Assembly: GCF_947090785.1 (NCBI RefSeq)
Contig: NZ_OX352320.1
Location: forward strand, 1,178,001 to 1,242,000
Direction of reading: 5' to 3'
DNA: 64,000 bases
From: Rheinheimera sp. MM224
GTDB taxonomy: Bacteria; Pseudomonadota; Gammaproteobacteria; Enterobacterales; Alteromonadaceae
A model generated the notes under the pieces. It had not been told where the DNA came from, made no database searches, and saw nothing but the letters and a program-made list of their open reading frames with translations. Every line of letters starts with the position of its first letter. Positions within the stretch are counted from its first letter, which is position 1. Position numbers and translations under genes: made by a program. Below, one piece after another: positions 8,034 through 61,302 of the stretch.

Positions 8034-11000
8034 TTACAAAGACTGTAAGAAAGTTTTCACTGCAGTACGTTGTTCAGCCGTCAGGTTTTCATACAGGCTG
8101 CGGCTTTGAGTGGCTTCACCACCGTGCCATAAAATAGCTTCATCCAAAGTACGGGCGCGGCCATCGTGCAGATAACGCACTTTATCTTCGCCACCCTGCA
8201 CATACTTCAGGCTACCTAAACCCCATAAAGGCGCGGTACGCCACATAGAGCCAGACGCTTTGCCTTGTGGCAGATTGTCCGCTAAACCAGCGCCCATATC
8301 GTGCAGTAATAAATCGCTGTACGGTTGGATTTTCTGGTTACGCAGCTCAGCCAATGGGTGAGTTTTGCCTGTAGTAAAGCTGGCGGTGTGACAAGCTACA
8401 CATTGGCTTTGCACAAACAGCTGTTTACCTTGAGCGATCAGCGCAGGGTCTATTTCGTGCTCAGGCGATATGCGGCTACCATCAGGGAAACCACTGCGTA
8501 AACTACGTTGTGCCGGTACACCTAATAAACCCAGATATTGAGTTAAATGTTGTAACTCGCCTTCAGAGATATGAGTAGTGCCTGACGGTTGCTGACAATC
8601 GGCAGCACCTTTTTGGCAAGAACGTTGTGGATACACAGGTGAAGTGACGCCTATATCCTGAACTAAAGCTTCTGCCGCCTGATGACGGGCACTGACTTTA
8701 TTTGCTTTCCAGCCAAAACGACCCAGCTGAGTTGCACCTGTTTCAGGGTTTTGCACCCAATGTGCTACACCTTTAACGCCATCACCGTTGGCGTCATTGA
8801 TGTCGACATTGGCCAGAATTGCCTGTTCAGGAATAGCTTCCAACAAGCCCATACCTATCACTTGTGGTGCCTGACGAACTGAATACAGCTCTGGCACCGG
8901 GCCTTTGAACTCATACAGAGGTTTTTGCAGTTCTACAGCAGTACCATCAGGCAGAGTTTTCACTTCAGTCTGATAAGAGGCTACTGACACTGAATAATCA
9001 TCGGCATTAGCTGCTCTGGCTTTGGCCTGAATGGTTAAACCGTACAGTGGGTCTGCCACTACTTTTTCATCCGCCAGCATACCGGTAAATACGGAGTAGG
9101 TATCGAGTTTAGCGCCAGCTTTTAATGCCAGACTACGGCCATTGTTCTGGTGACAGCCAATACAACGTTCATTGTTATAACGTGGGCCTAACTGATTTTG
9201 GTGTTCAGCAAATACCGGGTTTTGCGTGGGTGATTCTGAGTGAATACCTGAAGCAAAAGAGGTATGGAATAAACGACGACCTTTAGAAAATCTTAAGGTG
9301 TTGCCTATACCAATGTTGTTTGCCATTTGCTGGAACATACGGAAAGGCTCTTCCGAGTAGTTGTAAGACACGCTGGTCTCGCCGCCAAGCAGAGTATTAT
9401 TTGGCAGAGGTTCTGAATCCAGGTTTGGCGCTATACCGTACCAGGGTCTCATACCTACACCAACAATATAAAGCTGTTCAAAGGAGTAATAACGCTCACC
9501 ACCACCGTCGATCACCGGTGTTAATAAACGTGGAGCTGGTGCCAGCTCAATTTTGTCACCAATTTTCAGCGGGCTATGAGGGCTTGTACGCCAGTTTGAA
9601 TTAAAGCTCATCATGCATTCACGTTTACCGGAATGACATAAAGGTTGGCCACCCTCATTCGGGTTATTAAAGCCATAGTTCAGCGACCAGCCAAAATCTT
9701 TTACATTCGGGTTTTCGATATTACGGAATAAGCTGAAGGTGGTGCCGCGGAAACTGCCTTCATTGACATGCAACCAGACTTCGATGCTGTTGCCGCCAGC
9801 TGGAATAGTGTCCCGTATTTCTAAACCAAAAGTACGGTTCTGGAAATAAAAAGGTGGGAAGGTCAGGTAACGACCTGGTCCGGTATCGGGTGCATCCCAG
9901 GCTTCACCGCGTTCACGGGCATGACGTTCTGTCGGGCGTGCACCCATTAAGGTCACTAGCGTACCGTCTGCTTCTTTATACTGAATTTGCTCAACCACTT
10001 TCGTATTTTCAGGGAAAAGTGGCAATGCGCCTTCAGGTAAAGGAACTGGGTCCGGGCCAGGCTCTGTCGGGTCTGTAGGCTCAGTTGGGTCTGTAGGATC
10101 AGTAGGTTCCGTTGGATCAGTCGGGTCGGTAGGATCTGTTGGTTCAGTTGGCGGAACTTCACCAGCCTTACCAAAGACTTCCAGCTCCCGAATAGAGTAA
10201 CCCCAGGCATTACCTGCGCTTGGCGTTAAAGCATTGATGCGGATATAACGGTAGTCACCCGCTAAATCCATTCTGTCTGTTCTGTTGCCAAACTCATCAA
10301 TATAAGGAGTGGCTAAGGTCGTCCAGTTGCTGTTATCCACTGAGCCTTGCACTTCATAGCTTGCAGCGTTAGCTGCTTCCCAGTGGATTGCCACTTGCTC
10401 TACTTTACTGACTGAGCCTAAATCCACAGACATCCATGAAGGAGATTCCTGGTGATTCGACTCCCAGCGACTGTCGGTATTGCCATCCACTGCTTTTGCC
10501 GAGGACTGCAAATGGCTGCTGGCATAAGTCGTTTTGCCTTTCGCTATATTGCTGCTGCCAGTTGGCGGAGCGTCAGGTGATGTGGGGGCGCCTTCACCTG
10601 CAGTGCCTAAGACTTTTAGCTCCCAAATGGAAAAGCCGTAGCCGTTATTGGCACTATGTTTGGTCGCGAAGATACGCAGGTAGCGATAATCGGCATTCAG
10701 ATCAATAGTATCTGTTCTGTTGCCTTTTTTACCGCCCGTCTGCACTAACAAGGTAGTCCAGTTGCTGCTGTCGTCCGAGCCCTGAATTTCATAAATTTCT
10801 GCGTTGGCATCTTCCCAGTCAATTTGCACCTGGTCGATATGGCTGACGCTGCCTAAATCTATAACCAGCCAGCTCGGAGCTACTTTGTGCGCTGATTCCC
10901 AGCGACTGCCTGCATCTCCATCTACTGCCATTTTTGCCCGACGTAACTCAGTGCTGGCTGTGACTTTTTTATTTAAGGCTAAGTTAACAGGCTCGGCGTA

Positions 11001-59087: not shown

Positions 59088-59717
59088 ATGCCAGAGCAGT
59101 TAGCCTTATGCCCAAAGCCTGTCGCCAGATTGCTGTTATCTCATGGCGCCGGAGCGCCGGTGCAATCAGAGTTTTGTAAGCTTTTGGCAGAGCTACTGGC
59201 TAAGCAGAATATTGAAGTCTGGGGTTTTAACTTTGCTTATATGCAAAAGACCTTAGCGGGCAAAAGGCAGCTACCAGCTAAAATGCCGGTATTAATGGCT
59301 GAAGTGCTGGAGCAGGTAAGCCAAATGCCAACAGATTTACCTTTGGTTATTGCTGGTAAGTCGATGGGGGGCCGGGTTGCCACTATGCTTGCTGCATCAC
59401 ATCTGTTACCTGCGCAAGTGAAAGGGGTGATAGCTTTTGGTTATCCTTTTCATCCGCCGAAAAAAGATAACTGGCGTACCGAACATTTTGTCGATTTAAA
59501 AAGATCTGTTTTAGTGCTGCAAGGGGAAAGAGATCCTTTTGGTAGCACTGAAGAGCTGGCAGGAAAAAGCTGGCCGTCAATAGATCTAAAGTGGTTACAA
59601 AGTGGCGATCATGATTTTATGCCATTACAAAAATCAGGTTTGAGCCAACAGCAGCTTATTGAACAGGCTGCTTATCTGAGTCGGAGTTTTATTAATGAAT
59701 TTATTCTGGAAAATTAA
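59088..59717 (+). CDS. KANL3/Tex30-type alpha/beta-hydrolase
   Basis: The protein has 209 residues from ATG at 59088 (TTG at 59085 is rejected), 3 bp after gcvA. It matches small hydrolases of the KANL3/Tex30 family: LLLSHGAGAP (oxyanion, about 16-25), the nucleophile elbow IAGKSMGGRVA (Ser about 92), LQGERDPFG (Asp) and GDHDFMP (His). The substrate is unknown. In E. coli there is no such gene between gcvA and ygdD. The last 23 bp overlap the DUF423 gene. Confidence 0.85.
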   Translation: MPEQLALCPKPVARLLLSHGAGAPVQSEFCKLLAELLAKQNIEVWGFNFAYMQKTLAGKRQLPAKMPVLMAEVLEQVSQMPTDLPLVIAGKSMGGRVATMLAASHLLPAQVKGVIAFGYPFHPPKKDNWRTEHFVDLKRSVLVLQGERDPFGSTEELAGKSWPSIDLKWLQSGDHDFMPLQKSGLSQQQLIEQAAYLSRSFINEFILEN

Positions 59718-60081
59718 CAGCAGCTTAGCGGCATTTTATGGCGCAGTGACTGTAGGTTCAGCCGCTGCTTTAATGCATTTATGGCGTGGCACTATAGCTA
59801 CAGAACAACTGGCTGTGCTGTTAAGCGCAGGTTTTATTTTAGCTTTTCATACCGTGGCTTTATTGGCCTTATCAGCCTTTGACAAGCTGCAACAACAAAG
59901 CCCATGGTTAAGCCGCATTTGCGCTTGCGCCATGCAAATAGGGCTTTGGTTATTTGTTTATACTCTGGTAGCTGGTGTATTTATGCTGCCTTTACATTTT
60001 TCAGCTCTGGCGCCTTTAGGTGGTCAGTTGCTTATTTTAAGCTGGCTGGCTTTGGCCATCAGCCCTTGGATCAGGAAATAA
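59695..60081 (+). CDS. DUF423 membrane protein (YgdD-like)
   Basis: The protein has 128 residues with four hydrophobic helices (about 8-28, 38-60, 72-100, 106-124), as in the small DUF423/YgdD family of unknown function. It overlaps the hydrolase gene by 23 bp and is followed after 2 bp by the first of two mini-ORFs. It is part of the gcvA-to-rlmM transcript. Confidence 0.82.
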   Translation: MNLFWKINSSLAAFYGAVTVGSAAALMHLWRGTIATEQLAVLLSAGFILAFHTVALLALSAFDKLQQQSPWLSRICACAMQIGLWLFVYTLVAGVFMLPLHFSALAPLGGQLLILSWLALAISPWIRK

Positions 60082-60083
60082 CG

Positions 60084-60161
60084 ATGAAAAATTGGCAGGA
60101 TAGACAATTTTCACAGCCGCAGGCTGCCCGTCAGGGTGCGGCACATGGAGGTGCCGTATGA
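60084..60161 (+). CDS. 25-residue peptide, first tandem copy
   Basis: ATG at 60084 is preceded by AGGAAATAACG, so AGGA lies 7 bp before it and the DUF423 stop 2 bp before. The frame encodes 25 residues, MKNWQDRQF-S-QPQAARQG then AAHGGAV, ending at TGA 60159-60161. Its last four bases ATGA overlap the second copy's start codon at 60158. The unit carries GGAGGTG that serves the second copy. Too small for gene callers; coding is supported by coupling and by the conserved frame of the copies, not by similarity. Confidence 0.6.
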   Translation: MKNWQDRQFSQPQAARQGAAHGGAV

Positions 60162-60231
60162 AAAATTGGCAGGATAGACAATTTCCACAGCCGCAGGCTG
60201 CCCGTCAGGGTGCTGCACATGGAGGTGCAGC
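60084..60231 (+). repeat. two tandem 74-bp units, each a mini-ORF with its own Shine-Dalgarno
   Basis: Unit 1 is 60084-60157 and unit 2 is 60158-60231. They differ at only about five positions (TTTTCA/TTTCCA, GCG/GCT, and the last four bases). 74 is not a multiple of 3, so the two copies and rlmM lie in three different frames and each must be translated separately. Confidence 0.95.
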
Positions 60232-60235
60232 ATGA
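60158..60235 (+). CDS. 25-residue peptide, second tandem copy, coupled to rlmM
   Basis: ATG at 60158 lies in ATGA with the first copy's stop; GGAGGTGCCGT supplies the ribosome binding site (GGAGG 6 bp before the ATG). It encodes MKNWQDRQF-P-QPQAARQG then AAHGGAA and ends at TGA 60233-60235, which overlaps the rlmM ATG at 60232 by the same ATGA. Its GGAGGTG serves rlmM. The pair keeps the frame through substitutions, one of which changes Ser to Pro and one of which is silent, suggesting constraint or recent origin. Confidence 0.6.
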   Translation: MKNWQDRQFPQPQAARQGAAHGGAA

Positions 60236-61302
60236 AGCAACTTTTGCTGTACTGCCGTTCAGGTTTTGAGAAAGAATGTGCTGGCGAAATTCAGGATAAA
60301 GCGGGCCAGCAAGAGGTATTTGGTTTTTGCAAACTGACCAAAGACTCAGCTTTTGTCATTTTTGAAGCTTACGACAGCGACGCTTTAGCTACTTTTTACC
60401 GTGACTATGATTTCACGAATTTAATTTTCGCCCGCCAGTGGTTTTTGCTGGTGGACGATTTGTTGCAGTTGGACCCGGCTGACCGTATTACTACAGTTGT
60501 AGAATCGGCTTTAGCTGCTGAATTATCTGCTTTTGGCGAGATTAGGGTGGAATACCCTGAAACCAACGACGGCAAAACTTTATCTACTTTAGCCCGTAAA
60601 CTGACAGTGCCGCTGCGCCAGTCATTACGTAAAGCTGGTGTATTGCTACAAAAAGAAAACTCCCGTGCTGCTGTGCTGCATTTGTTTATGCAAAGTGGCA
60701 GCAGTGCTTATTTAGGTATTTCTTACCCTGAAAATAACAGCCCGCTGGAAAACGGCATTATGCGGCTGAAGTTTCCATCAGAAGCACCAAGTCGCAGTAC
60801 ATTAAAGCTGGAAGAAGCTTTTATTCAGTTTATTCCGAAGGATGAATGGGAAACCCGTTTAACTTCAGGCATGAGAGCTGTTGACTTAGGCGCTTGTCCC
60901 GGCGGCTGGACTTATCAGCTGGTGAAACGCAGCATGATGGTCACCGCCATAGACAACGGCATGATGGCACAATCCTTAATGGATACAGGCCAGGTAAAAC
61001 ATTATCAGGTCGACGGTTTTAAATTCAGCCCTGATAAAAAGAATGTGTACTGGCTGGTCTGCGACATGATTGAAAAACCGCAACGTGTTGGCAAACTGGT
61101 GTGTGACTGGCTGATTAATGAGTGGTGTCAGGAAAGTATTTTTAACCTGAAGTTACCTATGAAAAAGCGCTACGAAACCGTGGTTGAAGTACTGGATATG
61201 ATGCAGCATAACCTCAACGAAGCAGGACTGGACGTCGAAATTCAGGCCAAGCACTTGTACCACGACCGCGAGGAAGTAACGGTACATGTGCGTAAGGTTT
61301 AA
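60232..61302 (+). CDS. rlmM: 23S rRNA (cytidine2498-2'-O)-methyltransferase RlmM
   Basis: The protein has 356 residues (E. coli RlmM 366). The N-terminal THUMP-type domain is followed by a Rossmann methyltransferase with the SAM site MRAVDLGACPGGWTYQLVKR (about 216-235) and the catalytic tetrad Lys-Asp-Lys-Glu in VCDMI and NLKLPMKKRYE. It methylates C2498 of 23S rRNA. The start overlaps the second 25-residue peptide (ATGA), so it is translationally coupled to two short frames, an unusual leader. Ends the gcvA-rlmM transcript. Confidence 0.95.
   Translation: MKQLLLYCRSGFEKECAGEIQDKAGQQEVFGFCKLTKDSAFVIFEAYDSDALATFYRDYDFTNLIFARQWFLLVDDLLQLDPADRITTVVESALAAELSAFGEIRVEYPETNDGKTLSTLARKLTVPLRQSLRKAGVLLQKENSRAAVLHLFMQSGSSAYLGISYPENNSPLENGIMRLKFPSEAPSRSTLKLEEAFIQFIPKDEWETRLTSGMRAVDLGACPGGWTYQLVKRSMMVTAIDNGMMAQSLMDTGQVKHYQVDGFKFSPDKKNVYWLVCDMIEKPQRVGKLVCDWLINEWCQESIFNLKLPMKKRYETVVEVLDMMQHNLNEAGLDVEIQAKHLYHDREEVTVHVRKV

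Follow-up and report, generated by a model that had tools for sequence, protein, structure and literature searches.

A dispersed 74-bp repeat that sits on start codons in Rheinheimera and may couple rlmM to upstream translation

Main finding

Two copies of a 74-bp unit lie between a DUF423-like gene and rlmM in the window, as we call the whole 64,000-nt stretch of the Rheinheimera sp. MM224 genome that was analysed. As read from sequence comparison, the unit is placed on start codons, retains its reading frame, overlaps its stop with the next start, replaces the ribosome site of the target gene and has covarying hairpins. On the same footing, the units are kin to a family scattered across the class Gammaproteobacteria. 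The explanation that we favour, and hold to be rather probable, is that of a translation-transparent dispersed repeat that would couple rlmM to upstream translation and would place the rlmM Shine-Dalgarno in a probable CsrA-type loop.

According to this explanation, each unit would be a single copy of a small, dispersed element that landed on a start codon in the direction of the gene. The ATG of the incoming unit would use the old ribosome site of the target, while the target would get the Shine-Dalgarno of the unit. A ribosome translating the mini-ORF would open the fourth hairpin of the unit (H4) and pass to rlmM, and RlmM synthesis would thus be dependent on upstream translation. Less certain is a further step, in which a CsrA dimer on two GGA loops would cover the Shine-Dalgarno and turn the chain off, much as at iraD of E. 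coli.

The array upstream of rlmM

The features of the array and its two neighbours are as follows (R3 is the loop-blind covariance model described below).

59695..60081, + strand, upstream DUF423-like gene (PF04241, 24.5 bits, marginal against the cut-off of 25)
60084..60157, + strand, 74-bp unit, copy 1 (four hairpins; the ORF begins 2 nt past the DUF423-like stop; R3 60 bits, E 8.8e-19)
60158..60231, + strand, 74-bp unit, copy 2 (ATGA overlaps with copy 1 and with rlmM; R3 E 8.8e-14, at G000:C1:1238158-1238235)
60232..61302, + strand, rlmM, 23S rRNA (cytidine(2498)-2'-O)-methyltransferase (NF008734, 544 bits)

The two units are direct 74-nt repeats with 95% identity. Tandem Repeats Finder reported the array with 2.1 copies and a score of 278, the top of eight rows for the window. 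An 18-bp tandem repeat GTCGGGTCTGTAGGATCA, in about four copies, was seen at 10063-10151 of the window.

Each unit carries an ORF of 25 codons. ORF 1 (60084-60161) has the product MKNWQDRQFSQPQAARQGAAHGGAV and ORF 2 (60158-60235) the product MKNWQDRQFPQPQAARQGAAHGGAA, both followed by a stop. Peptide 1 starts 2 nt after the end of the DUF423-like gene (60081), while the joints between peptide 1 and peptide 2 and between peptide 2 and rlmM are ATGA overlaps. In both units GGAGGTG stands ahead of the next start. The starts at 59695, 60084, 60158 and 60232 fall in phases 1, 0, 2 and 1; three phases are therefore in use. The layout of translational coupling, namely a stop-start overlap with the Shine-Dalgarno located within the upstream frame, is present. 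The repeat and ORF analyses agree with the first-pass annotation, which had described, at 60084-60235, two near-identical 74-bp units, two 25-residue peptides, and a chain of coupled frames in three phases with GGAGGTG serving each next start; its naming of rlmM was confirmed by the NF008734 match.

The 3' end of the DUF423-like gene bears AGGAAATAAC. This is the rlmM ribosome site of relatives with zero copies of the unit, and here it precedes peptide 1. A promoter scan of 59695-60235 gave no promoter-like site. Peptide 1 had no family in Pfam and NCBIfam, and the 152-bp array had no DNA match in plasmid and phage collections.

Occurrence in related genomes

We considered a close clade of 12 genomes, including this one (G000), with RlmM proteins 93.5-97.5% identical to the RlmM of G000. 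Units were present upstream of rlmM in six of the 12 genomes, in one to four copies: two copies in G000, three in G001, two in G005, four in G009, one in G015 and three in G020. The rlmM genes of G002, G003, G006, G012, G014 and G018 had zero copies. The remaining 10 genomes of the genus showed no unit in the 260 bases upstream of rlmM.

When the 152-bp array was used as a query against the 22 genomes of the genus, matches were found in 11. Among the matches listed, we observed five loci, all in the clade only, one being rlmM itself and the others being the following.

ynbE, after ydbH: locus found in 11 genomes (without G014), none empty
gspM, after gspL: units in 8 of 12 genomes, 4 empty
DUF6691 gene, after a Sulf_transp gene: one unit in 4 of the 10 genomes where the locus was found (without G009 and G015), 6 empty
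amidohydrolase gene: matches in 3 of 12 genomes, these being two units, six units and one truncated unit

Empty sites exist among sister genomes at three of the five loci. The search for unit loci also returned a 42-base match in G019.

The first-pass annotation had presented the array as a device specific to rlmM, a relay whose copy number or peptide would set the output of RlmM. Copy numbers of 0 to 4 before rlmM and the overlapping frames would suit such a relay. Against it stand the presence of the same unit at four unrelated genes and its absence before rlmM in half of the clade (6/12) and in all 10 genomes of the genus outside the clade, as well as a peptide without sign of purifying selection (see below); we judge the relay to be very improbable. 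The count of copies upstream of rlmM in relatives, which the annotation had proposed, upheld a varying copy number and did not uphold a tie to rlmM, which six clade genomes keep without units. Copy number may still affect how much RlmM is made, and the differing numbers of units at rlmM (0 to 4) and at the amidohydrolase gene (as many as 6) are natural experiments.

The same annotation had named a chance tandem duplication as the alternative, considered here as a local duplication of the rlmM leader sequence. Arrays do grow and shrink locally. Still, this alternative is refuted by zero-copy relatives that are without the sequence, by copies at other loci and by a structured relative in other genera; the element is dispersed and structured, and we give chance duplication practically no weight. 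Slippage itself appears to have a share in the arrays. The copies of the unit at rlmM were 95.5% alike within arrays (14 pairs), compared to 94.3% between genomes (91 pairs). Since the likeness within arrays is hardly above that between genomes, recent slippage accounts for only part of the copy number. The clearest case of slippage is G009, with three identical copies of the unit.

Placement on start codons

All the junctions that were read had the same structure. The unit is co-directional with the gene, it begins at the position that the gene's own ATG has in empty sites, and the ATG of the gene follows it. For example, at gspM an empty site reads ...GAAAGC^ATGAGCCAAA, and a filled site reads ...GAAAGC-unit-ATGAGCCAAA (the distant G019 and G008 were left out of the gspM junctions, as their anchor was unaligned).

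Because the ATG of the unit takes the start position of the target, the old ribosome site of the target now serves the unit. The unit, in turn, ends with a strong Shine-Dalgarno and then the ATGA of the target, so that its stop and the next start overlap, which leaves the host gene readable. With start, stop and ribosome site all self-supplied, units can therefore stack head to tail without gene breakage. This would show how a dispersed repeat can occupy a start codon harmlessly.

The exchange of ribosome sites was visible in pairing energies. The pairing of the rlmM site with the anti-Shine-Dalgarno had an energy of -4.3 kcal/mol in all six zero-copy genomes of the clade, compared to -10.6 to -10.8 kcal/mol in all six unit-bearing ones. 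In the window, the value was -10.6 kcal/mol for the Shine-Dalgarno of peptide 2 as well as for that of rlmM. The region of the rlmM Shine-Dalgarno was predicted to be less open in the six genomes with units (0.30-0.54) than in the six genomes without them (0.43-0.67), with overlapping ranges.

Reading frame, peptide and protein fusions

The units counted here are the 34 full-length ones among 46 distinct matches. The 12 left out were L151 (with a 3-nt deletion), seven truncated or decayed copies of the clade and four sequences from other genera. With three extra full-length units (at ynbE of G001 and at gspM of G000 and G001), the set grows to 37.

All 34 distinct full-length units had open frames of equal length, and the frame was open in all 37 when the three extra units were added. 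The ATG at position 1 was present in 33 of the 34. The exception is the unit at the DUF6691 gene of G012, whose codon 1 is ATA, with an ATG one codon earlier, in frame.

Substitutions were counted as distinct changes from the consensus, with the units treated as a star, and the expectations were computed with transitions and transversions each matched in number to those observed. The 34 units had 37 nonsynonymous, 14 synonymous and 0 stop changes, compared to 35.6, 12.2 and 3.2 expected; for the 37 units the numbers were 42, 15 and 0, compared to 39.7, 13.7 and 3.6. On these counts the peptide looks to drift near-neutrally, and the openness of the frame seems to be retained, the stop deficit (0 vs 3.2) being weak, small-number evidence. 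The suggestion of the earlier annotation that the peptide could be a sensor of translation was not sustained, given changes near the neutral ratio and no support for purifying selection.

A truncated unit was fused in frame to YnbE in seven of 11 genomes (G002, G003, G005, G006, G009, G015 and G020); in G005 the fused unit is the second of two. In G014 the amidohydrolase likewise had a truncated unit joined to it in frame. We counted ATG codons in frame at YnbE, from the preceding stop to the lipoprotein cysteine. The ATG of the unit was the sole one in G006, G009 and G020, while G002 and G015 had two adjacent ATGs, and G003 and G005 had a second, later one. YnbE of outgroups was found in three of 10 genomes searched and had, as judged by eye, no such N-terminal extension. 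Given the in-frame fusions of truncated units, the ATG of the unit very probably functions as a start codon, and the unit itself is probably translated. A repeat of this kind may both rewire the translation of unrelated genes and donate new N-termini to proteins, the latter seen at YnbE and the amidohydrolase.

The loci of the fusions are L235, L237, L238, L239, L240, L248 and L265 for ynbE and L232 for the amidohydrolase gene; the new N-termini stand on exported proteins. At gspM of G005 and G018 the last unit is without its 3' part, yet it reads MKNWQDRQFSQPQAANTHGVV followed by a stop and overlaps the next ATG.

Hairpins and predicted fold

The consensus of the unit makes four hairpins, H1 to H4. 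In the window they were located as follows.

60088..60111, + strand, H1 of copy 1 (stem AAAATTG / CAATTTT; loop GCAGGATAGA with GGA)
60114..60136, + strand, H2 and H3 of copy 1 (H2 CAGCC-GCA-GGCTG; H3 CCC-GTCA-GGG)
60137..60158, + strand, H4 of copy 1 (8-bp stem, hexaloop ATGGAG; the Shine-Dalgarno of peptide 2 lies within ACANGGANGU)
60211..60232, + strand, H4 of copy 2 (GCTGCAC-ATGGAG-GTGCAGC; bears the rlmM Shine-Dalgarno)

In the alignment of 34 units, 93.9% of 782 cells were paired, and two-sided changes were seen in eight of 23 pairs. Four of the five measures of covariation were matched by 0 of 500 shuffles and the fifth (further pair types) by 52 of 500, to be read with the warning of the tool that relatedness among units can surpass such shuffles. 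The controls with slid partners gave 0-3 pairs with two-sided changes.

The predicted minimum free energy folds of single units included H4 in 30, H1 in 27 and H2 in 24 of the 34 units, with all three present in 22. For the two-unit array, the predicted fold had z = -2.98, with one of 200 shuffles equally stable. In this predicted fold the H2 arms of both copies pair mutually instead of forming H2 within each copy.

The loop-adjacent pairs of H4 (A-U and C-G) were invariant in the 34 units, GGA was present in the H1 loop of 34 of 34 distinct units, and the complete ACANGGANGU was present in 30 of 34, both window copies included. The H4 of four of the 34 distinct units had lost GGA and kept GAGG, and therefore only the Shine-Dalgarno was preserved there. 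As the Shine-Dalgarno is inside the H4 loop, the GGA of the units may persist for the ribosome alone.

A wider family in Gammaproteobacteria

Searches were made with three covariance models. R1 was built from the units and R2 from 70 matches of R1. R3, built from ten sequences whose H1 and H4 loops had been set to N, is a loop-blind model, used against a circular reading of the loops. All three models were shortly calibrated, so their E-values are rough.

R1 had matches in 18 of 22 genomes of the genus (E 0.01) and, at E 0.001, in 21 of the 197 searched across the order. At E 1e-4, R2 reached 109 of the 274 genomes searched in the class, and this genome had 17 of its matches. R3 had matches in 149 of 369 Gammaproteobacteria genomes and in 117 of 272 genera. 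In the class-wide search with R3, the window copies were found at E 6.4e-17 and 8.8e-14. When R3 was run on the 64-kb window, the next match after copy 1 was at E 0.49, which is a small specificity check (copy 2, sharing 4 nt with copy 1, is not in the result for the window).

The loops were read in 70 of the 149 genomes at one place each, taken among the rows with better scores; three of these places were also masked seeds. We observed GGA in 60 of the 70 H1 loops and in 60 of the 70 H4 loops, compared to means of 27.3 and 19.4 and maxima of 39 and 31 for 1000 sets of shuffled loops. The H4 loop had CANGGANG in 48 of 70. For the 95 distinct matches in the same loci, GGA was present in H1 in 77 and in H4 in 76, and CANGGANG in 59.

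The stems varied along with this. Among 64 diverged R1 matches there were 26 distinct H1 and 38 distinct H4 5' stems. The base after the H4 GGA, which is G in the units, was T in 46, C in 9, G in 4 and A in 4 of 63 diverged matches, with A, GG and A retained. The aligned matches indicate that the loops of H1 and H4 hold on to GGA as stems change and that common descent contributes to this; since the members of the family share descent, conservation of the loops is no independent proof of binding.

These data bear on a neutral or selfish repeat without regulation, of which the survivors would be those start-codon insertions that leave the host gene translatable, and whose hairpins would serve mobility or stability and not CsrA. 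Such a repeat would agree with an erratic presence among sister species, with a peptide sequence that looks neutral, with empty sites at three loci and with the common occurrence of decayed and fused copies. We nevertheless consider it rather unlikely: across the class-wide family the masked loops contain GGA far more often than shuffled loops do, while the stems are variable, and within the 34 units the AC/GU pairs of H4 are invariant and ACANGGANGU is kept in 30.

In this genome the diverged copies L211-L217 are unlike the units and are not open frames at start codons. At G009:C57:160530-161055 (L218) three diverged members of the family, with equal scores, follow each other at a spacing of 226 bp.

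CsrA as a candidate ligand

The genome has csrA, with one PF02599 match at 89.6 bits. In the review PMC7652899, the SELEX consensus of CsrA is RUACARGGAUGU, where AC and GU pair and the loops mostly have six bases, and the RsmE loop is ANGGAN. CsrA target hairpins and the unit have GGA loops in common, and H4 of the unit fits ACANGGANGU. ANGGA in a hairpin loop that overlaps a Shine-Dalgarno was found in 30 of the 34 distinct units, the two window copies among them. A difference lies in the stem, which in H4 has eight pairs, compared to at most four contiguous pairs in most CsrA SELEX ligands (PMC7652899). Taking these points together, we see about even chances that CsrA would bridge H1 and H4 and cover the Shine-Dalgarno.

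The antagonist RNAs of the CsrB/RsmX type likewise have GGA in hairpin loops, but the unit sits inside a chain of genes. A comparison of the window unit with the Csr/Rsm families of Rfam (CsrB, RsmX, RsmY and RsmZ) gave no match up to E 10. PMC9788540 and PMC11882849, considered as candidates for a prior account of the element, treat in the passages concerned Csr antagonist RNAs that were found one by one.

A closer parallel is iraD of E. coli, where CsrA represses the 27-codon ORF27, whose stop overlaps the iraD start (PMC5574718). The likeness consists of a short ORF with a stop-start overlap and of a gene's Shine-Dalgarno in RNA structure, with CsrA sites in the iraD leader (PMC5574718). 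On the other hand, ORF27 belongs to one gene, with CsrA sites at the ORF's own start and binding established by experiment, while the unit is a dispersed repeat with a candidate site on the gene's Shine-Dalgarno, proposed from sequence.

A broader reading may be offered tentatively, though we lean against it. It would make the element a portable CsrA docking module, with two GGA hairpins and two more hairpins in between, spread over the class. In many genomes copies are located next to tRNA genes, within tRNA remnants and in intergenic stretches, and transcripts of these might serve as CsrA sponges. In one Rheinheimera clade it would have become a start-codon-inserting translatable unit that at once gives any gene it reaches both coupling and CsrA control, with the dose set by copy number. 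Should the loops bind CsrA, a repeat would be carrying the operator of a global regulator about, and a structured element that is common in Gammaproteobacteria, unnamed in the Rfam scans and in the literature searched, would gain a testable function.

Comparison with known elements

REP/RAYT, ERIC and similar elements are short, hairpin-forming dispersed palindromes with many copies per genome. The unit differs from them in its open frame and stop-start overlaps, and no transposase link was found in this genome. A REP-like element mobilised through its hairpins by RAYT or by a Y1 transposase of the IS200/IS605 type would agree with hairpins, dispersal and precise junctions, and the genome does have four Y1_Tnp matches. 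However, the 1.5-kb flanks of these four matches in this genome contained no R1 match up to E 1, and we take such a mover to be improbable. Rickettsia palindromic elements are palindromic repeats that join protein-coding frames and lie inside genes. In contrast, the unit is a separate overlapping ORF on start codons, and gene fusion is seen in truncated copies.

For the window unit, the candidates for an Rfam identity were sub-threshold matches only. The same was true of the element at L139, which scored 22.4 bits for sX7 (threshold 55), 21.6 bits for FsrA (threshold 80) and 19.8 bits for rsmX (threshold 56). TwoAYGGAY, considered as a candidate because of an AYGGAY-like loop, appeared in none of the Rfam listings. 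At 20 loci of the order, no Rfam family lay over the R1 match at gathering score. In the open PMC literature, as covered by titles and abstract openings and with most subscription papers lying outside, we saw no name for this unit, for a start-codon-inserting repeat or for a dispersed repeat with CsrA sites.

The tyrT repeats of E. coli (RtT RNA) look like distant relatives of the element, as judged from model matches and alignments. The stretch 60060-60260 of the window had no match to RtT (RF00391) up to E 10. Conversely, R3 found all four RtT copies in the tyrT stretch of E. coli K-12 (L353, 1211-1995) at E 9.2e-10 to 2.5e-6 and 20-30 bits, while R2, which is not loop-blind, gave them only 12-19 bits (E 0.0018 to 0.049). 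The RtT copies of E. coli share a core of GCCGCAGGC and CCCGAAGGG with the element and, in the alignments seen, lie between GGTTCGA and AATCC, as does the element at L139. Unlike the units, they have no GGA at the H1 and H4 loop places in the three alignments shown. RtT also differs in setting: it lies in a tRNA operon beside a partial tRNA copy, while the window units lie at a start codon between two protein genes, although some other members of the family do lie in tRNA remnants. At L189 an RtT match coincides with a second R3 place.

Of 40 family loci, each 390 to 685 bases long, 15 contained a tRNA gene according to ARAGORN (raw count). At L137-L140, near position 1500, the element was seen by eye in the T-loop of a partial tRNA copy (GTTCGA, element, ATCC), close to intact tRNA genes. 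At L192, L194 and L203 (1501-1900), in three genomes of genus g66, at least two family members stand in a row just downstream of tmRNA genes. In E. coli, one of the RtT copies is overlapped by tpr, a 90-nt gene.
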